Below, one piece after another: positions 6,834 through 22,411 of a DNA stretch of 24,850 bases; the first letter of the stretch is position 1; each line of letters begins with the position of its first letter. The stretch spans positions 1 through 24,850 of the IMG/VR virus record IMGVR_UViG_3300029319_000480; one strand, 5' to 3'. The DNA comes from a virus. The position numbers were made by a program, and so were the translations under genes. The notes under the pieces are model-generated. The model made no database searches and was not told the origin of the DNA. It was given only the letters and a program-made list of their open reading frames with translations.

Positions 6834-7430
6834 ATGTACGGATACGAAAAAGGTCAACCGATGGCTGAAGATCAAGCAGCCATGCCACCAGAGGCTGCTC
6901 CACCTGCCGCTGAAGCCGCTCCACAGGAAGCTATGGACGATTCAGAGGCACAACTGCAGCAGTTGGCTCAGTCTGCGCCGGCACCTACAAAGCCGTTCAC
7001 AGTAAAGGCGCTCAAGACTCTTTTGGATACGTTTAATCAAACGCTCTCAAAGATTTCAGCGGTAGATATGCCGACGATTGAAATAAATTTTGAAGGTGCT
7101 GAAAAAGGCAAAATGGACTCACCGATTCCTGGTGATTTGTTCTTGCCACTGGTAGCTATTTCTGAATTGATCAAAATGGTTGGTGGTGGAGAATTTGAGT
7201 CGAAACTTGGATTTGATCCATTCACTATTGTGACGGACACCGACATTCGTAAGGTCACTGCTTTGTTGAAAATGATGGCGAAAGATAAAAAGTTCATCGA
7301 AGCTGTGAAAGAACTCCAAGAGGGTGGGCCTGAAGCTGAAATGGCAGCAGCCAATGAAGGCGGCGATATGGCCCCTCCGCCCAACGATATGGGCGCTCAA
7401 GACGAAACACTTGCGGCAGCAATGCAGTAA
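6834..7430 (+). CDS. Ala/Pro/Glu-rich acidic protein in the head module, unknown
   Basis: A 198-residue acidic protein with an AGGAG site before ATG 6834. Residues 1-52 are low-complexity Ala/Pro/Glu/Gln. Residues about 53-165 look folded and helical, including TVKALKTLLDTFNQTLSKI, PGDLFLPLVAISELIKMVGG and VTALLKMMAKDKKFIEAVKE. The last 30 are again Ala/Gly/Pro-rich and acidic. The gene sits between the zinc-ribbon gene and the scaffold. The composition, with disordered flanks around a helical core, would suit a minor head or assembly protein. I do not recognise the family and assign no function. It is followed by 64 untranslated bases. Confidence 0.75.
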   Translation: MYGYEKGQPMAEDQAAMPPEAAPPAAEAAPQEAMDDSEAQLQQLAQSAPAPTKPFTVKALKTLLDTFNQTLSKISAVDMPTIEINFEGAEKGKMDSPIPGDLFLPLVAISELIKMVGGGEFESKLGFDPFTIVTDTDIRKVTALLKMMAKDKKFIEAVKELQEGGPEAEMAAANEGGDMAPPPNDMGAQDETLAAAMQ

Positions 7431-7443
7431 TAAAGTTGCATTG

Positions 7444-7473
7444 TTGCGAAAGTATTTTAAAAAATGTTAGATT
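7444..7473 (+). promoter_or_regulatory. Possible promoter for scaffold/capsid genes
   Basis: The 64-base AT-rich gap before the scaffold gene contains TTGCGA (7444-7449, four of six to a -35) and, 18 bases on, TGT followed by TAGATT (7468-7473, an extended -10 with four of six matches). The -10 lies in the loop of a 7-base AT-only inverted repeat (arms 7456-7462 and 7472-7478). The match is weak; the placement before the most highly expressed genes is the main support. Confidence 0.3.
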
Positions 7474-7494
7474 TTAAACCGAAAGGAGATTTTT

Positions 7495-8457
7495 GTGTCA
7501 GACGAAATGATTGAAAATAATGAGAATGATTTACCGGTAAATGATGATGTCCCGGCTGGTTCTACAGGTTTGCTTGATGAGATTGATTCAGAGCAGAGTG
7601 TAAGTGCTCCTGAGAACTTCGATTCTAATGAAAATCAAGAATTTTCAAGTGAACCAGAGCCCGTAGTTACAGAGCGTTCTTTCGATCCCTTGTTTTCTGA
7701 TATAGATGACAAAGAATTGAGTACAGATGCTTTTTACGAAAACATTAATGAACAAGACATAAAAGACCTTCCGACAGTCGCTCGACGTATGCTTCACAAT
7801 TTTAGAGTTGCATACAAAAATCACAAAACAGATTTAGATGCATCTCACCAAAAGAGAGTCGAGCAATATCAAAAGCGTGAACAACAAATCCAAAGCTTGG
7901 AGCGTGATTTTGCTCGTCGGCAGGCTGAGTTTGCATCTGTTATTGATGACCCACGGATCAAAGAAGCGTTGAAAACACCTGAAGGTGAGTTGCCTGACAT
8001 CATGTCTGAAGAGGGCATTCAGGCTCACATCAATCGTGGAATTGCAGAGGCTGTTTCAAATGTGTTTTCTCCGATGCAGCAAGTGTCGGAAGAGCAGCGC
8101 CAGAAGAGTCGTTATCTTGACTTTCTCGAAGCACACCCTGAAATGAAAGATGATGGCTTCAAAACTCAGGTTGCTGAGTTGGTTGCAAGTCGTCAAAATA
8201 CTGATGCGCCTCTATCTACTCAAGATGCATACGATCTTGTCGTTGCTCGGAATATGATTGCTGAAGAGCGTAAGAGAAAAGAAACACAACGGAGAGCCCG
8301 TGCCCAAGCTGCGCGACAAGTACAGCGTAGTTCTGTGAGCGGCTCTCCCGGTGTCGCTGAAATTCCCCCTGATGTCAAGAAGCAAGGTGCAGCTTCGATT
8401 GCTGCTTGGCTCCAGTCAAACCCCGAAGCTGCAAAAGCCTTTCTAAATAACCGCTAA
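7495..8457 (+). CDS. Capsid scaffolding protein
   Basis: A 320-residue protein directly before the major capsid gene, the standard place for the scaffold that guides prohead assembly and is later lost. The first 90 residues are very acidic and likely disordered. Residues about 95-160 are a long charged helical or coiled-coil stretch (KRVEQYQKREQQIQSLERDF, then ARRQAEF). The C-terminal third has an Arg/Lys-rich segment (EERKRKETQRRARAQAARQV, about 257-276), followed by a short helical end. An acidic start, helical middle and basic coat-binding end is the usual scaffold layout. The start is GTG, with a very strong AAAGGAGA ribosome site eight bases upstream. No protease domain is visible. Confidence 0.82.
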   Translation: MSDEMIENNENDLPVNDDVPAGSTGLLDEIDSEQSVSAPENFDSNENQEFSSEPEPVVTERSFDPLFSDIDDKELSTDAFYENINEQDIKDLPTVARRMLHNFRVAYKNHKTDLDASHQKRVEQYQKREQQIQSLERDFARRQAEFASVIDDPRIKEALKTPEGELPDIMSEEGIQAHINRGIAEAVSNVFSPMQQVSEEQRQKSRYLDFLEAHPEMKDDGFKTQVAELVASRQNTDAPLSTQDAYDLVVARNMIAEERKRKETQRRARAQAARQVQRSSVSGSPGVAEIPPDVKKQGAASIAAWLQSNPEAAKAFLNNR

Positions 8458-8469
8458 TAGGAGCCAAAA

Positions 8470-9522
8470 ATGGCCGTAACCGACCTTACCATTGGAAACG
8501 AACTGCTTTCCACAACCATGCATATCCTGATGAAGGACTTTCGTGACAACGTTCACGAATCCGTAGCCTTCCTTGACGCACAAGAACGTGTTCACGGTGC
8601 TGGAAAGCCAGTGCAAGCCGGTGGATCTCGGATCGTTGTGCCTCTCGGCTTCGGTGAGCACTCTTCAACCACTCGTATGCAAACTGGTTTTGAGCGTATC
8701 GACCTCAGTGTCGAAGATGTGTTCCAACCTGCACAATACGATTTTGGTCACGTTGTGCGTCCAGTCGCTATCTCTTCTGAAGAAGAAATGGTCAACTCAG
8801 GCGATGCCGCAATCCTTTCGATTCTCGAAAGCCGCGTGCTCATGACCGCTAACGCTCTCAAGCGTGAGTACGTCAAGCAAATCGTCAAGGGTGGCCAAAC
8901 TGGTTGGGACGATTGGAACACGTTGAACGGATTTGACGTGACCACTGGTGACCATCAAGGTTTCCTTGAGCCTGAAGCTGTTGGCTCTCAAGGCAACACT
9001 TGCGGAAACGTCAGCAAGGCCACCTTCTCCAGCAAAACTGGTTGGCAAAACCAAATCTTTGATGGCGCTGGATCTTTCAACGCTAACGGCCTCGCGGGTC
9101 TTTATGACCTGTTGGTTGAAATCGACGCTGTGTCGCCTTCTGGCAAGCCCAACGTCATTCTTGCTTCTCGCGCTGGATTCAAGAACCTGAAGCGTGCTCT
9201 TCAGGCTCACGAGCGGTACGTTGATCAAGCACAGATTGATGGTGGACGCATGGTTGAAACCTTCCAAGGTATTCCAATCAATGTTGAGTTCAACATGCCA
9301 AACGCTGGTTCGGCTACTACTGCTGATCCTGTCAGCTTCTACTTGCTGAACATGAACGACATCTACACCCTGTGGGACCCACAAGGTTACTTCGACCTCT
9401 CGGACTTCGAGACTGTGTCGGGTGAGTACGATGTTCGTGCTGCCAAGCTTCGGTGCCGTGGTCAACTGATCGCCAAGCACCTTGGTTCCAGCGGTGTAGC
9501 ATTCGACTTGGAAACATTCTAA
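8470..9522 (+). CDS. Major capsid protein (HK97-fold type)
   Basis: A 350-residue protein that would form the head shell. It opens MAVTDLTIGNELLSTTMHIL and has a long N-terminal helix region, an E-loop-like segment (about 45-95, including SRIVVPLGFGEHSS), a central helix (ILESRVLMTANALKREYVKQ, about 117-136) and a P-domain-like half with GKPNVILASRAGFKNLKRAL (about 225-244). It ends in a strand with YDVRAAKLRCRGQL. Size, placement after the scaffold and an AGGAG ribosome site agree. The gene is visibly richer in C-ending codons than its neighbours: a hand count of 8821-8940 gives 63 G+C in 120 bases, as expected for a very highly translated gene. A strong hairpin lies 13 bases after the stop. 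Confidence 0.9.
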   Translation: MAVTDLTIGNELLSTTMHILMKDFRDNVHESVAFLDAQERVHGAGKPVQAGGSRIVVPLGFGEHSSTTRMQTGFERIDLSVEDVFQPAQYDFGHVVRPVAISSEEEMVNSGDAAILSILESRVLMTANALKREYVKQIVKGGQTGWDDWNTLNGFDVTTGDHQGFLEPEAVGSQGNTCGNVSKATFSSKTGWQNQIFDGAGSFNANGLAGLYDLLVEIDAVSPSGKPNVILASRAGFKNLKRALQAHERYVDQAQIDGGRMVETFQGIPINVEFNMPNAGSATTADPVSFYLLNMNDIYTLWDPQGYFDLSDFETVSGEYDVRAAKLRCRGQLIAKHLGSSGVAFDLETF

Positions 9523-9534
9523 GTCATCTTGATT

Positions 9535-9568
9535 GGGTGGGGGTCGTGTTGATCCCCACCCTATTTCA
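9535..9568 (+). terminator. Hairpin after the major capsid gene (terminator or mRNA stabiliser)
   Basis: An 11-base stem (9535-9545 pairing with 9551-9561; ten Watson-Crick pairs and one G-T) closes a 5-base loop GTGTT and is followed by TATTTC. The stem is very G/C-rich. The T tract is short, so partial termination or protection of the capsid mRNA 3' end is more likely than full stop. It separates capsid from the decoration gene. Confidence 0.6.
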
Positions 9569-9598
9569 TAGGCAATGTCTCAAGAGTAGGAGGACAAA

Positions 9599-10069
9599 AT
9601 GCCAATTTACAAGATTGATGGCGTCGATGGTGACGTTCACAAGCCAAAAAAGATTGTAACGCTAAACACAATCATTCCCACAAGCACAACAATCACCAAG
9701 GGTGATGTGCTGATGATTGATACCAGTGTCACCACCAATGGTGCTGGATTCAACGTAATTAAGGGTAGTGGAGCCGATGAGGCCGTCACAGTTGGTGTGG
9801 CTGCTGAAACGATTACTAACTCATCTTCCTCGGTGACCTTGACCACAAAGATTCAAGTTCAAGTGGCTGGTCTTAACGAAGACTGTACTGCTTCCGGCTC
9901 AGCGATTAACGCTGGTGACTTGGTTGGTATGGCAAACACTACCGTTGAGTCGGTTGCTGACTATTCAAGTGACCACGAAACTCGCCCATTCGCACTTTGT
10001 GTGAAAGCCTTCAGTAGTGGCGCTTCCGATGGAGCAATCATGATCTTCGATCACGGCTTCTACGGTTGA
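9599..10069 (+). CDS. Probable head decoration/stabilisation protein
   Basis: A 156-residue protein rich in Thr, Val, Ser and Gly, almost all predicted beta strand (for example TLNTIIPTSTTITKGDVLMI and VTVGVAAETITNSSSSVTLT). It directly follows the capsid gene, has the strongest ribosome site in the window (AGGAGG, six bases before ATG 9599) and shares the capsid gene's C-ending codon style, all as expected for an abundant capsid-surface protein. Residues GDVLMI and GDLVGM resemble the small beta-barrel architecture of decoration and head-stabilising proteins in other phages, but no specific family is recognised. An alternative is a minor capsid or head-fibre protein. A strong terminator follows. 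Confidence 0.65.
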   Translation: MPIYKIDGVDGDVHKPKKIVTLNTIIPTSTTITKGDVLMIDTSVTTNGAGFNVIKGSGADEAVTVGVAAETITNSSSSVTLTTKIQVQVAGLNEDCTASGSAINAGDLVGMANTTVESVADYSSDHETRPFALCVKAFSSGASDGAIMIFDHGFYG

Positions 10070-10155: not shown

Positions 10156-11754
10156 GTGAATCTCAAAGAAATCCGCGAAGAAATCAATTCCGCGTTGGAC
10201 TACAACCCTGATTTGAAGCAATACAGCGACAATATTGCTCGTGTAGTCAACCGTCACTACCTTCAGATGTCGAGCCAGTATGCGTGGCTGTTCATGCAAA
10301 AACGCAACTTGTTGCAGCTTCGCGCAGATATCACCGGAGACAGCACCAGCAAGCTAACGGGTGATGGTACACACTTGGTGAGTTTGCCAACTACTACCGG
10401 TGCTGGAGTTATCAATTTACCAGCAGACATTGTCGGACACACGCTTGTAAACACCGACGATGGTGCCACATATAGAATTACCGAATTCGTCGATGAACGT
10501 AGTTTTTTAGTCGACGATATTTTTCCTTCAGGTGATCTTACTACTTGGAAAATAGAATTTACCAAATACCCGATGCCCCGAGATTGCATCGAGGTTTTGG
10601 GCATCATGGATAGAGGTATCACCACAAAAGAAACTTTAAGCTATTTGACTGATTCGACCACAAAAACAATGACCGCCCCAAATGAAGGCCGGTTCATGTT
10701 TTTGGATGCAAGAAAAGAAGAAAACTTGTACCTGGATCGATCAGATACCGGTAATCCTTTCGTCTCTGTTGAAGAAATGCACGAAAATCTGCAGTCTCCT
10801 GATTATCGGTTAGCAATATTTGGTCCAACTAAATTGGTTGCGCGGAGCGCTGCATCATTAGCAAAGTGCAGCTTTCCATATCATATGGAAGCACGATATC
10901 TTGTCGAGTATTGTTACACATTTACTTTTGCTGGAATGGAAAGTCCACCATCTGAAGTAGTAAAATTAGAAATTGATTTTGATAATATCCGACCTGATAT
11001 CGTAGATGCCGTTGAACTAAGGGACGACTTTGCAGGCACCGATAAAGCAGCTTTACTCTTCGTTCCTGGTCTTGGCGCGGCGATAGCAAGCACTCCTGAG
11101 ATACAAATAGTGCGATTTATGAAAACGACCACTTCAATTGGTGGCGTCAATGGAATGATGAAAAAACTATATCGTAAAATTACGTTGTTGGATAAACCGT
11201 ATACGAGTGGAGGAACACCGGACAAGCATCTTACGAAAGGCTCAACTTGGAGACATATCGCTACGATCCATCCTGAAGTTACAGAATATACTGATAGCGG
11301 TTTTGATATTGACGATTCAACGTCGAAAACCGTTTCGGACCCAGTTGACTCCACTAAGTTTAGTTCGTTAGATCCGGCTGGAGACGTGTTTCGCCTCGAT
11401 AGACTCAACGAATCAGGACCACGTCAGTATCTTCGTTTTTGGAACACACCCAAAAGTGACTACATGGTTGAAGTTAGATACCACAAGCGACCATTTCGAC
11501 TCGTCAAAGACTCTGATGCACCAGAGTGGCCACCCCAATACCATCATTACCTTGTGTATGCGGCTCTCAGAGACATTTGTATGCAGCATGGTATGCTCAA
11601 CCATAGTTCGTTGTATGAACGTCGTGCAGATGAAATGCTCGAAGCCATGAAGGCTAAATATTTGAGTCGAACCGATAGAATGTATGTACGAAGAGGGTTC
11701 GATCGCGCTATGGCAGATCGGGAACGCTTCGGAATACCAAGCAAGGCTGAGTAA
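10156..11754 (+). CDS. Head-to-tail adaptor-like structural protein with an inserted fibronectin-like segment
   Basis: A 532-residue protein starting at GTG 10156 (GGAG ribosome site). The N-terminal 55 residues are helical (MNLKEIREEINSALDYNPDL, then YSDNIARVVNRHYLQMSSQY), and the last 120 include PQYHHYLVYAALRDICMQHG and a helical, basic end. This N- and C-terminal helical pattern is what I expect in short-tail adaptor/connector proteins that sit below the portal. In between are beta-rich regions, including a fibronectin type III-like segment at about 248-385 (YCYTFTFAGMESPPSEVVKL) that has a counterpart in the next gene. It is the first gene after the terminator and the start of the tail module. 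The adaptor role is inferred from position and helical ends, not a diagnostic motif. Confidence 0.6.
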   Translation: MNLKEIREEINSALDYNPDLKQYSDNIARVVNRHYLQMSSQYAWLFMQKRNLLQLRADITGDSTSKLTGDGTHLVSLPTTTGAGVINLPADIVGHTLVNTDDGATYRITEFVDERSFLVDDIFPSGDLTTWKIEFTKYPMPRDCIEVLGIMDRGITTKETLSYLTDSTTKTMTAPNEGRFMFLDARKEENLYLDRSDTGNPFVSVEEMHENLQSPDYRLAIFGPTKLVARSAASLAKCSFPYHMEARYLVEYCYTFTFAGMESPPSEVVKLEIDFDNIRPDIVDAVELRDDFAGTDKAALLFVPGLGAAIASTPEIQIVRFMKTTTSIGGVNGMMKKLYRKITLLDKPYTSGGTPDKHLTKGSTWRHIATIHPEVTEYTDSGFDIDDSTSKTVSDPVDSTKFSSLDPAGDVFRLDRLNESGPRQYLRFWNTPKSDYMVEVRYHKRPFRLVKDSDAPEWPPQYHHYLVYAALRDICMQHGMLNHSSLYERRADEMLEAMKAKYLSRTDRMYVRRGFDRAMADRERFGIPSKAE

Positions 11755-11757
11755 ACC

Positions 11758-13980
11758 ATGAAAACCCAAACATTTGAAGTCGCCCGCTTACGAGGCATGG
11801 ACAATCGGTGGAGAGTTTCGGCTGACTCTGCGGCTGTAATCAAAGAGATGTCTTGGGACAATTACGATGGATGGAAAACTGCTGGAGCCTATGACTGCAT
11901 CACTTACGATGCATACGATTGGTCTGACTCCGGAACTATTCACTCAATTCATTATTTTTCCAGACACAATGGGAAAACCAGAGACGTTATATTTGAAGAC
12001 TCCGAGGGACGATTAGCAACACTCAAAACAAATAGGATCCATACAGATAATCCGTTTTTTGTTTTAAAAGATATAAATGGCGTCGATATTGGACCGCGCG
12101 GTAACCCTAGATATGTACCACCAACATCTGAGGTGAGCAGTCAGAGCATTACTTTTGGTGGTCGTTTGTATTTGGTAAATGGTATTGATGCTCCGATTGT
12201 TTATGACGGGAGGGCTGTATCGAGAGCAGGCTTTTTCGAAAAACCAGCAAAACCGGATGCCAGCGTTGTTTACAGGGAGTTCCACAATCAATTTGTTGAT
12301 GAAGGTGGGGATTTTGGAGATGACACGCATTATTTTTTAGGAACCCGTGAAAAAGGTCAGGGTTTGGGGAGTTTGCGGCCAACTGGTACAAAAGTCAGAA
12401 AAAAAATGTCAAAATCAGACGACAGTGCAAAAACTGGTCCGACATACGTTGACGGAAAACTGTGTGCTTATCAATACAGGGTTACGTTCGTTAATAGTCG
12501 GGGCCAAGAAAGCCCAATGTCTGACCCAAGCGACATTTGTAGTTTTGAGTGTGCGAACGGTAAGCGTAGGTTTACTCAAATCAATATTCCCATCGGGGAC
12601 GAAAATGTAGTCGCAAGACGACTCTATCGGACGAGGGATATTTTTGATGATGACGGTAATCCGATTACTCCAGAGTCTGGTCGTAATTTTCATTTTTTAA
12701 AAGAAGTACAAGACAACGAATCTACGGCAATCGAGGATGGAATTAGTGATTCGAATCTTGGCGTATTGACGGATCCAGAAGACTTTGGAATTTTCCCTAC
12801 ACAGGCAAAATTTATTACCTCATTTAAAAACACGGTGTTCGTGTCGGGAATGCCCAACAACTTGATCAAATACAGCGCAGAGGGAATGCCGGAAGTTTTT
12901 CCCAGAGACAACCTATTTGATATTGGAGATTCTGACTCTGGAGAAATCACGGGCATGTACGCCTCTACAAACGCTTTAGTGGTATTCAAAACACGCGGAG
13001 TGTACCTGATTAAAGGTGATCCAAGGAACGGTTTTTACGCTCAGACGCTTAACCGTGACATCGGCTGTGTAGCGCCCAGATCAATCCAAGACGTGCCAGG
13101 AACCGGCCTCGTATTTTTATCACAAGATGGTGTTTATGTGCTCAAGGGCGCCCTTGAGAACACGGGAAGTGCTACCTCAATTGTACAATTGAGCACACCG
13201 ATTAAAAATCTTACGAAAAGAATAGACTATGTGGGGGCTCGTGCAGCCGTAGGTGTCATCAACAGAGCCAACAAAGAGTATTTTTTGTGTGTTCCGACCA
13301 ATGGAAATGTGAATAATTTACTTTTGGTTTGGCATTATGAGGTTGGTGCGTGGAGTTTTCGAGAAAATTATCCAATGCAGTGTGCTGTTGAAACTACCGA
13401 TGCACGATCGTATTTGTACTTTGGTAGCAACGATCCAGAAAAGCCTGGTATCAATGTTTTCAGTAGCTTTTTTAGAGTAAAGTATGCATTTGGAGTAGTC
13501 GGCGGTAAAGATCCAGACAGACTAAAATCTACGATTGATTTGCCACTTTACGAAACCAGCCCACTTTCATTCGGCAGCGTGTACTCAGGCATTCAAATTG
13601 CATATATCAATCTGTATGCCGTCGCGTATGGCGATAATGAGATAGAAGTAAATTTTAAAATAAATAGATCCGAAGTTGTATCATTGGAAAAAAACAAAGG
13701 CAGAATACAGCAACATCTAAACGAGCCGTTAGCAGTATATGATAAAGCTAAGTTTGGTTCCGATCGTTGGGGATTTCATCGACCCATTGTCATACGGTAT
13801 GATGTAAGTCATATGCACGAATCAGTGACCACTGAACTTGCTATTCAATTTACTCAGCCTCTCGATCCGATCGTCGGAACACGAAACATGATGATTGTTG
13901 GTTACAGTGTAGATGCCAAGGTGGGCGATCAGAGAAACATTAGACCATTGACAGATGTTTTGGTATCGGAGAAACGATAA
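11758..13980 (+). CDS. Beta-propeller-like tail hub/nozzle structural protein
   Basis: A 740-residue protein, mostly beta. Repeated strand-turn units such as SQSITFGGRLYLVNGIDAPI (about 130), ALVVFKTRGVYLIKGDP (about 410) and GLVFLSQDGVYVLKG (about 455) have the blade-like pattern seen in the nozzle or stabilisation proteins that close podovirus tails. A fibronectin-like segment at about 238-332 (YQYRVTFVNSRGQESPMSDP, then VARRLYRTRD) resembles that of the preceding protein. The gene lies 3 bases after the adaptor candidate, so both are probably translated together and assemble next to each other in the tail. The specific family is not certain; another tail-hub protein is possible. No signal peptide or membrane segment. 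Confidence 0.65.
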   Translation: MKTQTFEVARLRGMDNRWRVSADSAAVIKEMSWDNYDGWKTAGAYDCITYDAYDWSDSGTIHSIHYFSRHNGKTRDVIFEDSEGRLATLKTNRIHTDNPFFVLKDINGVDIGPRGNPRYVPPTSEVSSQSITFGGRLYLVNGIDAPIVYDGRAVSRAGFFEKPAKPDASVVYREFHNQFVDEGGDFGDDTHYFLGTREKGQGLGSLRPTGTKVRKKMSKSDDSAKTGPTYVDGKLCAYQYRVTFVNSRGQESPMSDPSDICSFECANGKRRFTQINIPIGDENVVARRLYRTRDIFDDDGNPITPESGRNFHFLKEVQDNESTAIEDGISDSNLGVLTDPEDFGIFPTQAKFITSFKNTVFVSGMPNNLIKYSAEGMPEVFPRDNLFDIGDSDSGEITGMYASTNALVVFKTRGVYLIKGDPRNGFYAQTLNRDIGCVAPRSIQDVPGTGLVFLSQDGVYVLKGALENTGSATSIVQLSTPIKNLTKRIDYVGARAAVGVINRANKEYFLCVPTNGNVNNLLLVWHYEVGAWSFRENYPMQCAVETTDARSYLYFGSNDPEKPGINVFSSFFRVKYAFGVVGGKDPDRLKSTIDLPLYETSPLSFGSVYSGIQIAYINLYAVAYGDNEIEVNFKINRSEVVSLEKNKGRIQQHLNEPLAVYDKAKFGSDRWGFHRPIVIRYDVSHMHESVTTELAIQFTQPLDPIVGTRNMMIVGYSVDAKVGDQRNIRPLTDVLVSEKR

Positions 13981-13982
13981 TC

Positions 13983-15038
13983 ATGGCAATTAAGTTTCCG
14001 AACAAAGCCGCAAGATCGGGTGAAGTGATTAATCCAGATGATACACTTGAAAGCATTGGTCAAATATTTAATGAAATTAATGGAAATATAGACTCAGATA
14101 ATCTGAGAGAAGTTCCTCATAAACAAAGCTTTAAAAAGGATGCCTTCCATGAGGTGTTTAGCTTTGCTGACCCACCGTTTTCTGGCGTGTCTGAAGATTT
14201 TAAATGCCCCCACACCACAAGCGCATATGTGAAACGTGATGCTTCCAATAGTCAGCTTGCCGGCGTAGAAATTGATGCTGAAACAGACGGTTGGGCGATC
14301 ATTGATTTTAACGCATGCTTTGTTTGGGAAGGTACAGGCATAACTAGTGTGGAAATGGCCAGAGACTTACATCTAGCTACTTTGTTGTCTGAGGAAACAT
14401 CAGGATCAAATCATTTAGAATCCGGAATAGGTATGGCTAATTTAAAACTCCCCGCAGGTGGGTGGATGGGAGTAAGTGGCGAATACGCAGCCAACATGAT
14501 TAATCCCAAAGGAAGGGGGGGCGGCAGGTTCAACGCACCTTTATTAGACGCAGACGGTAATAACGGTCCTGGTTTAATTGAAATGAATTTTCCCTTGGGC
14601 CAATTTTCAGACGTCCCTGTTGACTTTTATTGCGTGCAATTTCGGATCGTGGTCAATGGAAATTTGGTTGCAGAGTCTGGGCCAATGTTCAATGGTAATT
14701 GGAGAAACACCGTTTATCTTTGCGGTGCCGTGCCCTTGACTGCTGGTAAAAATCACATCGATGCAGAGGTTCGTGCGTATACTGCTATTGAACTAAAAAC
14801 CAGCCGATGTGGTATTGGGGCAAGAGATAGTGAAGGTCGACGTGGAAAACTTTTCTCTTTTCAAACTATTTCTTCTGATGTTCACCCTTCCCCCCTGCCA
14901 GAATATGAAGCTGAAGGGTTGAAGATTGAAGATATCTCTGAAGATTTGGACGCTGAAGGAAAACACACAGATTTAGATAAAGGTATAAAGTGTACAATTA
15001 AAGATCGACATCTTTTAGTTCAATATAGGAAAAGATAA
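13983..15038 (+). CDS. Putative tail appendage/receptor-binding protein A
   Basis: A 351-residue protein, first of three consecutive similar ones. It opens MAIKFPNKAARSGEVINPDD and continues with LESIGQIFNEINGNIDSDNL, a short helix plus an NGNIDSDN turn typical of the N-terminal attachment part of phage fibre and spike proteins. The remainder is beta-rich with many Gly, Asn and aromatic residues, and contains LTAGKNHIDAEVRAY (about 260) and the ending KDRHLLVQYRKR. It follows the nozzle candidate by 2 bases, and its TAA shares a base with the next ATG (TAATG). Position and layout suggest a tail appendage, possibly a receptor-binding protein. No enzymatic motif (such as a pectate lyase or sialidase signature) is seen. 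Confidence 0.55.
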   Translation: MAIKFPNKAARSGEVINPDDTLESIGQIFNEINGNIDSDNLREVPHKQSFKKDAFHEVFSFADPPFSGVSEDFKCPHTTSAYVKRDASNSQLAGVEIDAETDGWAIIDFNACFVWEGTGITSVEMARDLHLATLLSEETSGSNHLESGIGMANLKLPAGGWMGVSGEYAANMINPKGRGGGRFNAPLLDADGNNGPGLIEMNFPLGQFSDVPVDFYCVQFRIVVNGNLVAESGPMFNGNWRNTVYLCGAVPLTAGKNHIDAEVRAYTAIELKTSRCGIGARDSEGRRGKLFSFQTISSDVHPSPLPEYEAEGLKIEDISEDLDAEGKHTDLDKGIKCTIKDRHLLVQYRKR

Positions 15039-16027
15039 TGGGTAGGTTAAAATTACCAAATATAGTTTCGGGTGATTTATTAGATGTTGATATTTGGAAT
15101 GAACATTTTCATACTCAAATAAAAGATTTTAAAATATCTTCTGAAAATATTGCTGAAGAAGGTATAAATAAAAATAAAGTTCCAGCCAGAGTGATGCGTT
15201 CAGGTGGGAGTCAAAAAATTCACACACCATCACAAGATTTTCCTGCGTATGATGCTGCGTATACTGATATCGATAGAGACCCGTTTATCATTTCGGATCA
15301 CCATTTTGTTTCAGGATCTCTTTTGAGTCCCGGCATAGTTTTTAAAAAAGATGCAACGAAGGTTGTCGCTAGATTTTCCTGTCAAATAAAAATGTTTGAT
15401 TATGGTGCAAGGACATTTTTTCCAGGTATACCAGCCACTGCTAAACTGGGATTATTTCACACGTTTAGTGACTCACCTGATGCTAAAAGTACTTGGGACT
15501 ATTGCAATGGAACCAAAGGGCTTTTTTCTTGCGCTTTTACATCCAAAATTCCAAGCGATTCGGGTGGCACTACTAATTTGACCGCAACAATGATTGATTT
15601 CGGATATCCAGGTACTGTATCATCTCGTAGCAAGGAAAAACGACCCGATCTTATTACGCTTGAGCCGTCTACCTCAACTGGTAACCCTACGGGCAGCGAT
15701 AGTTACAACGTCATTGGAAATAAACACATGCGTTTTGAATCTCGATATTCGTATTCGGGAGCGTTCCTGTTGAACTATGATGAAGTTGATCGTTCTCTTT
15801 TTACAGAGACAACAGTAGGTGGTGTAAAACAATTTGGTAGCCTACATTTTTGTATCGGAGGGGGCTACCACATACCTGATTTTTTGGGTCCAGAATACCC
15901 TGGTGAGGCCGATTCGGGTGACGTTGGATATGACTTTGAGCACTATTCGAGGGGTTGTGGAAGAGTTGTTTATCGCCCTTATCAAATAAGTGATATTCAA
16001 ATTTCTTGTTTCAGTTTGAGGTCATAA
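15038..16027 (+). CDS. Putative tail appendage/receptor-binding protein B
   Basis: A 329-residue protein, second of the trio. Its N-terminal 55 residues (MGRLKLPNIVSGDLLDVDIW, then NEHFHTQIKDFKISSENI) follow the same plan as its neighbours: a short hydrophobic start, a G-D/E-hydrophobic motif, a helix and a polar SSEN-type turn. The rest is beta-rich, with Ser, Gly, Tyr and His (SDHHFVSGSLLSPG, RYSYSGAFLLNYDE, FCIGGGYHIPDF). The first 140 bases are very AT-rich (33 G+C by hand count), in contrast to the capsid gene. The ribosome site is AGGA, weak for this genome. The stop is directly followed by the next ATG. No enzymatic motif seen; host-range or attachment role inferred from neighbours. 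Confidence 0.55.
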   Translation: MGRLKLPNIVSGDLLDVDIWNEHFHTQIKDFKISSENIAEEGINKNKVPARVMRSGGSQKIHTPSQDFPAYDAAYTDIDRDPFIISDHHFVSGSLLSPGIVFKKDATKVVARFSCQIKMFDYGARTFFPGIPATAKLGLFHTFSDSPDAKSTWDYCNGTKGLFSCAFTSKIPSDSGGTTNLTATMIDFGYPGTVSSRSKEKRPDLITLEPSTSTGNPTGSDSYNVIGNKHMRFESRYSYSGAFLLNYDEVDRSLFTETTVGGVKQFGSLHFCIGGGYHIPDFLGPEYPGEADSGDVGYDFEHYSRGCGRVVYRPYQISDIQISCFSLRS

Positions 16028-16900
16028 ATGCCAATTCGATTTTTTCCACTTAAAAATAATGGGGATATTTTAACACGCGAGGAAATAAACAATTTTAATG
16101 CTTCTGCGTCCTTTGATTTAAATAAGGGATTTTTTAGCAGTGATTTTGAGAATCTGCCTAGTGCGACTGGCGATGGGGCATCGGATAAAAAGGCAGTAAT
16201 ACAAACGTCTCATATTTTTAAGCCAGAATTTTACGGATCACCAAGCCCCCATGTTTTGGGTGTGTCTTCTGACACCTATTACAGGTCAAGAAGCAATAAC
16301 AAACTCAATCGATACTATCGACACGAGGGCATTGGGAGCGTTCAAGCTAAAAGTCTTACTGATGTCGATATTTTTGCAGATGTCAACGCTTGGCAACCGA
16401 TAGAGGGTTTGTCTGCAACCGTTTATGTAGAGCCAGGTGAGACACCCCTAACAACTTTTGTATGCGCCAGCTTTCATGCGCACGAAAAAGGTGGAAAGGT
16501 AGGAGATCCGAGAAGTCAAATTCTAAGAGAGGGTCGACTCACTGGTGATGGCAATAAAATGGAATCGCTATCGGGTTTCAATAGAGCGACTCAAGCAGGT
16601 ACATTTGTTGCAATGTTTGGTCTTTTTTTGGATCGAATGGATGGTAACGGACCAAGATATGTATCCGGCACTCAAAGACGGATTTTTGGTACTGGTGGTG
16701 GACGATACAGATGCAGGAGGATGAATCATTCAATCATTGCAAATCTAATTACGGGCACTGGTTATGATTTTTCACTTACGGAAGGTGAAAACAAAATTTC
16801 GGTTCGATGTTTGTATAGGCTTCCATCGCCATCAACTAAGGGTACCAGGCACGTTTATGTTGATGCCCGCAACCTTGTAGTTGACGTGATATACAAGTAA
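16028..16900 (+). CDS. Putative tail appendage/receptor-binding protein C
   Basis: A 290-residue protein, third of the trio, starting on the base after the previous stop (GAGGT ribosome site). The N-terminus MPIRFFPLKNNGDILTREEI followed by NNFNASASFDLN and SSDFEN matches the attachment-like module of the two upstream proteins. Towards the end, EGENKISVRCLYRLP and the terminal DARNLVVDVIYK correspond to AGKNHIDAEVRAY and KDRHLLVQYRKR of protein A, so A and C probably share a beta-sandwich fold. The middle contains a run of short polar motifs (TYYRSRSNNKLNRYYRHEG). Function as a receptor-binding or decorative tail protein is inference. Confidence 0.55.
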   Translation: MPIRFFPLKNNGDILTREEINNFNASASFDLNKGFFSSDFENLPSATGDGASDKKAVIQTSHIFKPEFYGSPSPHVLGVSSDTYYRSRSNNKLNRYYRHEGIGSVQAKSLTDVDIFADVNAWQPIEGLSATVYVEPGETPLTTFVCASFHAHEKGGKVGDPRSQILREGRLTGDGNKMESLSGFNRATQAGTFVAMFGLFLDRMDGNGPRYVSGTQRRIFGTGGGRYRCRRMNHSIIANLITGTGYDFSLTEGENKISVRCLYRLPSPSTKGTRHVYVDARNLVVDVIYK

Positions 16901-18808: not shown

Positions 18809-21800
18809 ATGGCCGATTTGAGTTGGACACAAAAATTTAATGAATCGTTTAGGTCGTCTGCATCGACGCAGATGAAGTCATACGAGCAAGATTTTCAGCA
18901 GGTAAAAACCACTGTAGATAAGCTGGATAGAGAGATTCAATACATTGATCGTCTCTTGGCTCGTCAGGGAATGACTCGATCCAGTTCAAGGTCAAGAATA
19001 GGATTTGATCGTTTGCCTGCTTTGTCGAGTCAATTGAAAAAAGAGAGAGCAAGAAACGACAAGCTTATCGAAAAAGACAAACGTGAAATAGAAAAAGAAT
19101 TAGAAAAATTGATTCAAACAAATAATGCAGCACACAAAGTGTTTCGAGGTGAACAGGCTCAGAAAGCAATTAATAATTTTGTTACTAATGCAAAAATGCT
19201 TACTGGTCGTGACGATGAAGTTAGATTAAAAAACGACTTAGACCGGTTTATGAGGTCTTTGGATCAAATCAACGACAAGTCTATAAATATTGCCAAGTTT
19301 TTAATTTTTGAAAAAGTATTAGAAGAAACAAAAGGTTTTCCACTATACAGCCTCATCGAAACGAGAATTGAGTCGGAAACAGCTAAGGCATCGAGTGAAC
19401 ACTCAGGCAAGCCTGTCGGTCAACCTGTTGATCCTTCAGAGTTGGCAGAACAATATCCGCTCGTAACAGTCGATAAAAATCGAAATTTAGATGAAGATTT
19501 TTTGAATGATGTTCTTGATAGCCCTGAACTTCAGCAAAAGTACCTCGGAAAAGAGTACGTATTCGAAGGCAATCCGAAACTTGAAGGTCGAATCGAGTTG
19601 CTCGATAATTTCATTTTCGCACGTATCGAAGAGGAAATGGGTATCAGTGGATCTATTGACATCCCAGCAGAAAACGATTCGATTGAGGAAAAGCAATCGT
19701 TTTTGAATCAGGTGGTCCCTGGTGGATACACCATTGATGAAAACAATGAAATCAGAGTGGATGAGTCTGCCCCGCCAGATGTGCAGGCCGAAGCTGCTAA
19801 AAAGATGGCCCTGGGTGCAGGCGAGTCTAAATCATACTCTATTTTTTCTGATTTTGGTCGCGGAACGGAGGTCCAGTCAGACCGCGAAACACGTGCTGAA
19901 CAGAGGCTGGTAAAGCGTCGAAATGAATTGGAGACGCGACGGAAAGATGCGGTCAATGCTTTCGCAAAGAGTCGTAGGCTGAATAGACAAGAGTTGGCGC
20001 TGCTGGACCACCCCATTTTGCGTGTAACGGGCTTCAGAGAGGCTGTGGGCATGTTTGACGATGTAGCGGCACCCGAGGCTGCTCCAGAGCCCGAGGCTGC
20101 TCCAGAGCCCGTCGAGGCGGCACCAGAGCCCGTTGAGGACATTCCAGAGCCAGAGGATACTGCTTTAGGTCCAGACTCTACAGGTGTTCCAATCATTCCG
20201 GCAGTTATCAATAGGGTGACAAACGCAATCAACAGAGCAAACTCGGCCACAAACCAAGATCAATTTGCTGCCGATTCTGAGTTGGAAGATGTTGTACAGG
20301 GATTCTTTACGCTGCCGGAAGATATCAAAAGCAAGTTCCCACAGCAGTTTGTTTTGGCTGCTTACGAGTACACCCAGCCGCGAGAAGGCAAAACAGATAC
20401 GCCAGAAGGCCGGCGACAGATCATGGTTGACGCCCTACCAAGTCTTGATGACTCTGCAATTACAACGCAAACAATCGGGGAGTACATTGCAGACGTATCA
20501 TTAGATCCCAACCGAGAAGCATTAGCATCAACATCAGATATGGTTGATTTTTTGAATCACCCTGATTCGGTTGGGGAGGGCAGCAATGTTGTGGGTAGAA
20601 ATTTACCTGCTGGCACGATTGGGTCAGAGTTTAACGATACGATGATGATGATTAGCGAAGGAACCGCAAGCCGATCGGACCTTATGGACGTTTTTGAGAG
20701 AGCAAAGTCCTTGTCTCAACGAGAGCGGCCTGATTTTTTCGATACCAATAAATATGGAAGATATGAGTCTATAGATCGCTTCGTAGCAGCTATGGATGCC
20801 GACAAGGGCGCAAGGGTGACCCCTGCACCTCAGCGCCCGAGACAACAGATACCGACCACACCACCAGTGACGCCTGAAGCAGATGAGCCACCACGAGACG
20901 ATCCTCGGTTGTTGGTGCAGGGTGATGATGATGGCGATTTAGACGATCGTGTTCTTGAGCAAATTGCTTCTATTAGAGAGCCAGAAGAGGCTACACGACT
21001 GGCTAGAACTGAGGCTCGTCGTCAGCAAATGACGGAAGCTGAAAAGCGCGACACATTAATGGCAGGATTGTCCCCAAGTGCAGGATCGAGAACCAGATAC
21101 ACGGAAGGCCAAATTGATACTTTGCCCGAGGGGTTCGAAGGGTCAAACATTATGGGTGATCCAACTCCACCACCAACTCCAGCACCACTACCTGCAGAGG
21201 CAATTGTAGAGGCAAACGTTCCTTCAGGAAGAAGGCCTACACCAACAGGTGTTCCTACGGGAACAACCTTTCGAGCGTCTGCTGGATCAACCGTTACGCC
21301 TGTTGAAACGATTGCTCCTATTGGTGAAACAGTCGATGAAATCGAGATGCCACCGGCTCAACGGGAGTCAGATACTCGAATGATCGCTCAAGCAGATGCA
21401 CCCGATGTGTTCGTGGCACCTGAGTCTTATGATCCAACTCCAGAGCAAGTCGCCTCTGATGATGAACTTATTCGCAGGGCCGAATCACGTGATTCAGTAA
21501 ACGAAGTAGATGCTCGGACCCCCGATCAAAGACTAGCAGATGTACAGTCCAGTCTACCTGTTGGTAATGTGCCACGGATCTCCGCTCCCCGTGAACCTGA
21601 TCCTGTTGTGCAAGCCCGATCGAGAAGGGCAATGCTTGGCGCCACACAAGATTTGTTGACCCAAGTCGAAAATAAAACGATTCAATACGACGATGCGATA
21701 GACGGCGCTAACACGATTGCAAGACAGTTCGGACGATTTGCTTCTCCAGGATTCAATAGAAGGCTGTACGAAGAGATCAATAAGAGATTTTCACAACCGG

Positions 21801-22411
21801 AGGCTCCAACACCACCGAGAGCCGTCGCAGTAAACAAACCGCCCGTCACGCGCGATGGAGGGTTGGTAACGGATGCCGCTACAGAAAGATCAGGCATTGC
21901 CCACGAGGGTATTGATCTCAGAGCATTCGAAGGTGACGACGTATTCGCTATTGCTGACGGCATCGTGATTGCTTCAAACAACGATGAAACTCTTGGTGGT
22001 CGCCATACAGCAAACAGAAAAAATGAAGACGGAGAATATATCGGGACTGGACCCGGTAAGTACGTCTACATTCTGCACGACGATGGTCGCATAACGAAGT
22101 CTATGCATCTCAGTGATGCCAAGCTTTCACCGGGAGATCGAGTGAAGGCAGGAGATGTTATCGGCGCTGCCGGCAATACAGGAGGCTCGAAGGCGGCACA
22201 CTTGCACTTCGAGGTACACGTAGCAAACGAGTCAGGCAGGTCCGTGCCTGGAACAGATGGTAAATATATTCCGGTTGATCCTTTTGCAGAATATCCAGAT
22301 GTATTCAAAAACTTTAGCCTAAAAGGTCAGGAAGGCATTACAATCGACAATATTCCTGAGTTGGCTAAACGCCTTGGATTGGAAGTTCCAACAGTAAAGC
22401 GGGCTCAATAA
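18809..22411 (+). CDS. Giant internal virion protein with C-terminal M23 peptidoglycan endopeptidase
   Basis: A 1200-residue protein. Residues about 1-200 are coiled coil (TVDKLDREIQYIDRLLARQG). The middle is a long, mostly acidic region with a Pro/Glu/Ala repeat tract (about 420-450) and Pro/Thr linkers (about 675-695, 790-800). The C-terminal domain, about 1015-1175, is an M23/LytM zinc endopeptidase: zinc ligands His1032 and Asp1036 (HEGID), catalytic-type His1100 (MHLSD), and HLHFE with His1131 and His1133. M23 enzymes cut peptide cross-bridges in peptidoglycan. Carried on a large virion protein, it would open the cell wall during DNA entry rather than lyse the cell at the end. ATG 18809 has only a weak ribosome site, so coupling with the upstream gene (stop 10 bases before) is likely. 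Confidence 0.85.
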   Translation: MADLSWTQKFNESFRSSASTQMKSYEQDFQQVKTTVDKLDREIQYIDRLLARQGMTRSSSRSRIGFDRLPALSSQLKKERARNDKLIEKDKREIEKELEKLIQTNNAAHKVFRGEQAQKAINNFVTNAKMLTGRDDEVRLKNDLDRFMRSLDQINDKSINIAKFLIFEKVLEETKGFPLYSLIETRIESETAKASSEHSGKPVGQPVDPSELAEQYPLVTVDKNRNLDEDFLNDVLDSPELQQKYLGKEYVFEGNPKLEGRIELLDNFIFARIEEEMGISGSIDIPAENDSIEEKQSFLNQVVPGGYTIDENNEIRVDESAPPDVQAEAAKKMALGAGESKSYSIFSDFGRGTEVQSDRETRAEQRLVKRRNELETRRKDAVNAFAKSRRLNRQELALLDHPILRVTGFREAVGMFDDVAAPEAAPEPEAAPEPVEAAPEPVEDIPEPEDTALGPDSTGVPIIPAVINRVTNAINRANSATNQDQFAADSELEDVVQGFFTLPEDIKSKFPQQFVLAAYEYTQPREGKTDTPEGRRQIMVDALPSLDDSAITTQTIGEYIADVSLDPNREALASTSDMVDFLNHPDSVGEGSNVVGRNLPAGTIGSEFNDTMMMISEGTASRSDLMDVFERAKSLSQRERPDFFDTNKYGRYESIDRFVAAMDADKGARVTPAPQRPRQQIPTTPPVTPEADEPPRDDPRLLVQGDDDGDLDDRVLEQIASIREPEEATRLARTEARRQQMTEAEKRDTLMAGLSPSAGSRTRYTEGQIDTLPEGFEGSNIMGDPTPPPTPAPLPAEAIVEANVPSGRRPTPTGVPTGTTFRASAGSTVTPVETIAPIGETVDEIEMPPAQRESDTRMIAQADAPDVFVAPESYDPTPEQVASDDELIRRAESRDSVNEVDARTPDQRLADVQSSLPVGNVPRISAPREPDPVVQARSRRAMLGATQDLLTQVENKTIQYDDAIDGANTIARQFGRFASPGFNRRLYEEINKRFSQPEAPTPPRAVAVNKPPVTRDGGLVTDAATERSGIAHEGIDLRAFEGDDVFAIADGIVIASNNDETLGGRHTANRKNEDGEYIGTGPGKYVYILHDDGRITKSMHLSDAKLSPGDRVKAGDVIGAAGNTGGSKAAHLHFEVHVANESGRSVPGTDGKYIPVDPFAEYPDVFKNFSLKGQEGITIDNIPELAKRLGLEVPTVKRAQ
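20075..20152 (+). repeat. Tandem Pro-Glu-Ala repeats in the hydrolase gene
   Basis: An exact 18-base unit (GAGGCTGCTCCAGAGCCC) occurs twice at 20075-20110, followed by two diverged 21-base versions to 20152, together encoding an EAAPEP/VEAAPEP-type linker. Frame is kept; such tracts are flexible spacers and change length easily. Confidence 0.85.

Follow-up and report, generated by a model that had tools for sequence, protein, structure and literature searches.

Three conserved genes after the tail nozzle of an uncultivated podovirus-like phage probably encode paralogous tail-fibre-type proteins

The virion module and proteins A, B and C

The DNA analyzed here (the window) is part of a viral contig, IMGVR_UViG_3300029319_000480, and is 24,850 bases long. 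By family matches, its genes run from single-strand binding protein and terminase large subunit through a 791-aa protein, a zinc-ribbon protein and a protein in the scaffold position to the major head protein (PHROG 9953), which is followed by an SU10-type adaptor (PF24175) and the nozzle (PHROG 511/3287). Next come three proteins that we call A, B and C; behind these are two small proteins, then one of 183 aa, and finally one of 1,200 aa that carries an M23 peptidase domain. The 791-aa protein occupies the portal position and is without any family match. This gene order is that of a podovirus-like virion module.

The nozzle or 'stabilization' protein (740 aa; 11758..13980, + strand) matches PHROG 511 at E 1.3e-19 and PHROG 3287 at E 4.2e-17, and its tblastn matches are annotated phage stabilization proteins. 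The gene for A starts 2 bases past it, followed by those for B and C. Protein A (351 aa; 13983..15038), protein B (329 aa; 15038..16027) and protein C (290 aa; 16028..16900) are all encoded on the + strand, with exactly the coordinates and frames that a first-pass annotation of this DNA had given them. In the window, A and B meet at TAATG and B and C at TAAATG; in the relatives, the A/B/C junctions are overlapping or abutting almost everywhere, and nozzle and A are also close. The three proteins were characterized from their open reading frames, relatives and models, supplemented by fold matches for A and by evolutionary distances for B. Each is predicted to consist of an N-terminal anchor and a jelly-roll head, which is TNF/C1q-like in A and B and probable in C, where a conserved HIFKPEFYGSPSP segment is also present.

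No family in PHROGs or Pfam matches A, B or C at E <= 1; among their divergent relatives, the best value is E 0.009, reached in single members. A and C gave no tblastn match in 50,697 phage records, and C gave none in the genome contigs of 84,980 species, so no prophage offers a clue to the host.

Several neighbouring genes vary among the relatives. Directly after the major head protein lies a small 156-aa gene (9599-10069, +) whose products are only 30-34% identical between phages with 94-96% identical head proteins, and 48% identical in one further contig; in relative L036, it is doubled in tandem (1000-1497 and 1526-2020). Its sequence behaviour makes the 156-aa protein a candidate for a rapidly changing head decoration or fibre protein. 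The adaptor gene (10156-11754, +) encodes 532 aa, the SU10 adaptor model matches residues 423-504 only, and the length ranges from 449 to 679 aa among relatives; the adaptor therefore has a large additional part. Relatives L032 (2049-5768) and L046 (995-4726) have a longer nozzle protein of ~1,240 aa, whose match to the 740-aa window protein starts only at ~residue 470-484 and which therefore carries a large N-terminal extension. Downstream of C, the 1,200-aa protein (18809-22411, +) carries its M23 peptidase domain at residues 1032-1140 and sits where an ejected internal virion protein is expected. In relative L044, a fourth gene (8738-9553, 271 aa) separates C from the small D134-like gene; the product of this fourth gene has no blastp similarity to window proteins.

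Conservation and the shared N-terminal module

All 28 distinct related contigs that cover the whole stretch from the nozzle to C carry exactly three genes, in the same order, after the nozzle (27 counted by script, and L045, with a wrong start codon, by hand: B 7004-7828, C 7830-8762). The set persists even in relatives whose proteins are only 22-30% identical to those of the window, and in none of the 28 contigs was A, B or C seen to be lost, gained, duplicated or swapped. Pairwise distances between relatives track those of the nozzle (r 0.95 for A, 0.87 for B and 0.89 for C) and are 2.1, 3.4 and 1.9 times as large, respectively, B being the fastest changing. When the contributions of nozzle and adaptor are removed, the A, B and C distances still correlate at 0.38-0.46, a purely descriptive figure given that the taxa are related. 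Where genes provide alternative specificities, gain, loss and exchange are usual. Because the order is fixed in 28/28 contigs despite such low identity, and because the distances follow the nozzle, the comparison favours an obligate, jointly assembled set as a better fit than interchangeable specificities.

The three proteins are not recognizably similar by simple searches: BLASTP detects no similarity for any pair, and with profiles of 5-6 sequences each, the N-terminal matches stay below significance. By scanning IMG/VR contigs, we gathered enough relatives for profiles of 15-21 members per family. With these, the N-termini align profile to profile in one register, with single-comparison (not database) E-values of 3.8e-6 for A/B, 5.7e-4 for A/C and 3.3e-3 for B/C. 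The all-against-all comparison proposed by the first-pass annotation was repeated with deeper profiles (20-21 relatives) and again matched the N-termini in one register, at single-comparison values of 1.4e-6, 4e-4 and 2.7e-3. We regard the agreement of all three pairs on one register as stronger than any single E-value. In an all-pairs control with 14 profiles from the families of the locus, A/B ranked first, A/C second and B/C fourth; the sole other pair at the level of B/C was D134/E299 (0.0024), two families of biased, Ala/Arg/Gln-rich composition. When columns were shuffled for the N-terminus alone, 0/150 shuffles reached the observed score for each of the three pairs.

The shared module is about 45-60 residues long, comprising residues 1-60 of A (13983..14162), 1-55 of B (15038..15202) and 1-48 of C (16028..16171), all on the + strand. 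It contains a predicted helix at residues 18-32 in A, 17-29 in B and 17-33 in C, a region where model confidence is low. In the distant relative L044, the same plan is visible by eye in the three N-termini, SGDVIDPDDWNLNHTNFAEEFNGNLDRDNF / AGDVLNTTDANKTLDNWASATGSINRANL / PGDTVSASDIQDKLQEISDFINEDIEASDL. The short N-terminal plan that the first-pass annotation had described in A, B and C is thus borne out by the in-register matches and the shuffles, and its proposal of tandem duplication followed by divergence is supported, in the form of an old event that precedes the whole clade: the three N-termini share common descent, and the evidence supports A, B and C as ancient paralogues that arose by tandem duplication before the clade diversified.

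A resemblance to known proteins was found by way of gene position. HTVC033P is a cultured phage whose nozzle distantly matches that of the window, and its next gene is an annotated tail fibre. The N-terminus of this fibre leads on to those of HMO-2011, HTVC104P, HTVC115P, several CRP roseophages, and Rhizobium and Sinorhizobium phages. Ten records were used, and in each of them the fibre gene directly follows a nozzle-type or tail structure gene. A profile of these ten tail-fibre N-termini matches all three window families in the same register (C at E 8.5e-4, B at 2.5e-3 and A at 9.2e-3), and its scores were reached by 0/100 shuffles for C, 0/100 for B and 1/100 for A. The likeness is weak, covering about 27 residues of sequence, and coherent with gene position. 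Since this in-register likeness coincides with a position after the nozzle, the N-terminal module is probably a tail-docking anchor.

Searches for the module elsewhere had also been proposed earlier. When viral contigs were scanned with just the A anchor, those that were mapped carried it only at the head of A-type genes after a nozzle, and no A anchor with a foreign head was seen there. Against phage records, tblastn with the N-terminus of B found only a weak Stenotrophomonas phage match (E 0.6), and the N-terminus of an A relative found no match.

Tandem genes share an anchor in Podoviridae ctKR88 (L070, MW202524.1) as well: there, two consecutive tail-fibre-like genes at 7488-8867 and 8877-9704, shortly after the stabilization protein, have nearly the same N-terminus, MGTLGRGYTFAATETVTASKLH / MGTLGRGYTFGASETVTNLKLH. 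These N-termini have no significant match to A, B or C, and we discarded them as relatives of the three families.

Predicted folds of the heads

A was modelled with AlphaFold from 16 sequences (mean pLDDT 63, core strands 85-93). For B and C, a single joint chain was predicted, in which the one in-frame TAA between them was read as glycine. Overall, the mean pLDDT of the models is about 63, and confidence is low for the anchors.

The head of A (residues 52-351; 14136..15035, +) aligns with the TNF-like lectin PLTL at a VIA-align Z of 12.6 over 123 residues and 2.5 Å, and further matches include BC2L-C (Z 12.0) and TNF and C1q domains. Among phage tail proteins, it matches a portal-tail chain of cyanophage A4 (Z 10.0) and a short-tail-fibre domain of A-1(L) (Z 9.7). 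Variable insertions of low confidence occupy residues about 131-211 and 273-298. The head of B (residues 52-329; 15191..16024, +) aligns with PLTL at a VIA-align Z of 10.5 over 133 residues and 3.1 Å, and with the A4 chain at Z 9.2. The models thus place the heads of A and B in the class of TNF/C1q-like, lectin-like jelly rolls. C has its most conserved stretch at residues 62-105, from HIFKPEFYGSPSP to YYRHEGIG (16211..16342, +), as seen in the alignments and the conservation profile. Its probable head (residues 94-290; 16307..16897, +) reaches a VIA-align Z of 7.8 on its own, to the TNF-type ligand TL1A, and does better only when joined with B; for C, a TNF/C1q-like jelly roll is suggestive. 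The AlphaFold models that the first-pass annotation had called for therefore agree on one fold class for A and B and are weaker for C. Its view of the three as appendage-type proteins gains support from the post-nozzle position, the fibre-like anchor and the predicted lectin-like heads. Lectin-like folds are also found in structural, non-binding proteins.

The first-pass annotation had further claimed that A and C match near their ends, at AGKNHID/EGENKIS and in the last 12 residues; this match is weaker than that of the N-termini. The aligner picks the same turn (AGKN/EGEN) at E 0.014, a score equalled by 2/100 shuffles, and in the models of A and C the AGKNHID/EGENKIS turn opens the long strand before the last long strand. 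The match is structurally sensible in the predicted folds and borderline by sequence, which alone is no proof. Convergence, in which a motif fitted to a common docking site would precede unrelated heads with no paralogy, could draw on the modest fold match of C and on the C-terminal profiles, which alone detect no A/B or B/C sequence similarity, but we consider it improbable, as the N-terminal module has the same position, register and predicted helix throughout and, in A and B, heads of one fold class sit identically behind it.

Assembly of the set and comparison with known systems

It is quite probable, in our view, that this podovirus-like phage makes A, B and C as virion proteins of the tail-fibre type: they would be ancient paralogues, each an anchor with a lectin-like head, and would together form an obligate appendage set. 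The computed support consists of the paralogy of the anchors, the jelly roll of A and B (suggestive for C), the strict conservation of three genes and the weak likeness to fibre anchors. No annotation or virion evidence was found for members of the three families, which likewise lack a PHROGs or Pfam match. In the virion, each N-terminal module would dock on the tail near the nozzle/adaptor region, the nozzle protein (11758..13980) being the likely docking partner of all three. The head, with its fold modelled for A and B and suggestive for C, would point outward and probably touch a surface glycan or other receptor, and heads may form trimers, as is usual for this fold elsewhere. Each site would then hold either one A:B:C heterotrimer or three homotrimers. 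After a tandem duplication before the clade diversified, the three copies would have been kept as an obligate, jointly assembled set, that is, as one appendage system.

How the chains combine is where readings diverge. The one we tentatively prefer is a single A:B:C heterotrimer, with one jelly-roll protomer per chain and three non-equivalent anchors fitting an asymmetric tail site. In the B-C read-through model (pTM 0.61 for 620 residues), both heads align at once, B into C, to single-chain C1q, APRIL-BAFF and adiponectin trimers; these single-chain trimers are the top-scoring rows, at Z 11.6-13.0 over 231-265 residues, with C1q the best at Z 13.0 (5hkj, 4.0 Å over 245 residues). This is a hint, from a model, that B and C are two neighbouring protomers of a TNF/C1q-type trimer. 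It has to be set against the read-through residue, which links B and C and forces proximity, against the possibility that AlphaFold pairs homologous heads that stay apart in nature, and against the coverage of the model, which is confined to one copy each of B and C. The strict one-of-each conservation, the overlapping or abutting genes and the residual distance correlations also fit a heterotrimer, although neighbouring genes are tightly packed too and the correlations come from related taxa. A precedent exists in gp35/gp36/gp37 of mycobacteriophage Mysterious (PMC13252515).

The other possible arrangement, close to the first-pass view of several specificities at one attachment site, is three homotrimeric receptor-binding proteins of differing specificity, each on its own site or on shared equivalent sites. 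Homotrimers are the usual state of TNF-like phage heads and lectins, the heads of A, B and C have diverged well beyond the anchors, and B changes fastest, all of which would suit this arrangement. Against it stand the 28 contigs, in none of which a gene of the set was lost, gained, duplicated or swapped, and distances that track the nozzle, unlike those of typical exchangeable specificity genes. We slightly favour the heterotrimer over the three homotrimers, because a three-fold fibre at an asymmetric site explains both the similar anchors and the one-of-each set, and because of the B-C packing. One linear fibre of stacked homotrimers, running from A at the base to C at the tip, has a model in the three-gene operon with globular trimers of A-1(L) (PMC10966104), but stacking requires different docking partners; since all three anchors look alike, each resembling tail-docking fibre N-termini, we find it unlikely.

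Under the heterotrimer reading, which we hold with less than even confidence, the obligate A:B:C assembly would be a phage analogue of the C1q head: tandem duplication would have turned a homotrimeric fibre into a heterotrimer, in which the three anchors could adapt to different parts of the asymmetric tail site and the three heads to different parts of the receptor. In either case, this group of uncultivated phages would have a fixed tail-appendage set made up of three families without a PHROG or Pfam match. A heterotrimer would be the second such case after the Mysterious baseplate protein among the literature examined, would have a clear evolutionary path starting from one fibre gene, and would explain concretely how a three-fold fibre can sit on an asymmetric tail site. 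Three homotrimers would instead make an unusually stable multi-receptor array. We found no literature on TNF-like or C1q-like podophage appendages, which is no proof of their absence.

Among known systems, the fibres of HMO-2011-type marine podoviruses and Rhizobium phages (HMO-2011 gp43, HTVC033P gp66 and those of the CRP phages) are like A, B and C in gene position and N-terminal module. They are encoded by one long gene of about 500-1,440 aa, whereas the window has three short proteins of 290-351 aa, in which the jelly roll begins at ~residue 52 and a long repetitive shaft is absent; because of this absence, we do not claim membership in the long-fibre family. The TNF-like trimeric lectins (the BC2L-C N-terminal domain and PLTL) and the TNF/C1q-like heads of phages A4 and A-1(L) belong to the fold class predicted for A and B. 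This likeness is one of fold alone, with no sequence similarity to A, B or C and with large variable insertions on the side of A.

Three genes of one operon also build one fibre of globular trimers in the neck fibre gp82-gp81-gp80 of cyanophage A-1(L), but there the homotrimers are stacked, have distinct N-termini and belong to a myophage neck, whereas the window anchors are alike (PMC10966104). By description, gp35/gp36/gp37 of Mysterious share with A, B and C a beta-sandwich head, an N-terminal arm and adjacent, consecutively numbered genes; they form a heterotrimer seen by cryo-EM in a siphophage baseplate, while for A, B and C the heterotrimer is a possibility (PMC13252515, June 2026 preprint). 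The globular head of C1q, a vertebrate complement protein, is an analogy of working principle only: it is a heterotrimer of three paralogous jelly rolls, and the B-C model packs likewise, which makes the same arrangement a model-based possibility for A, B and C.
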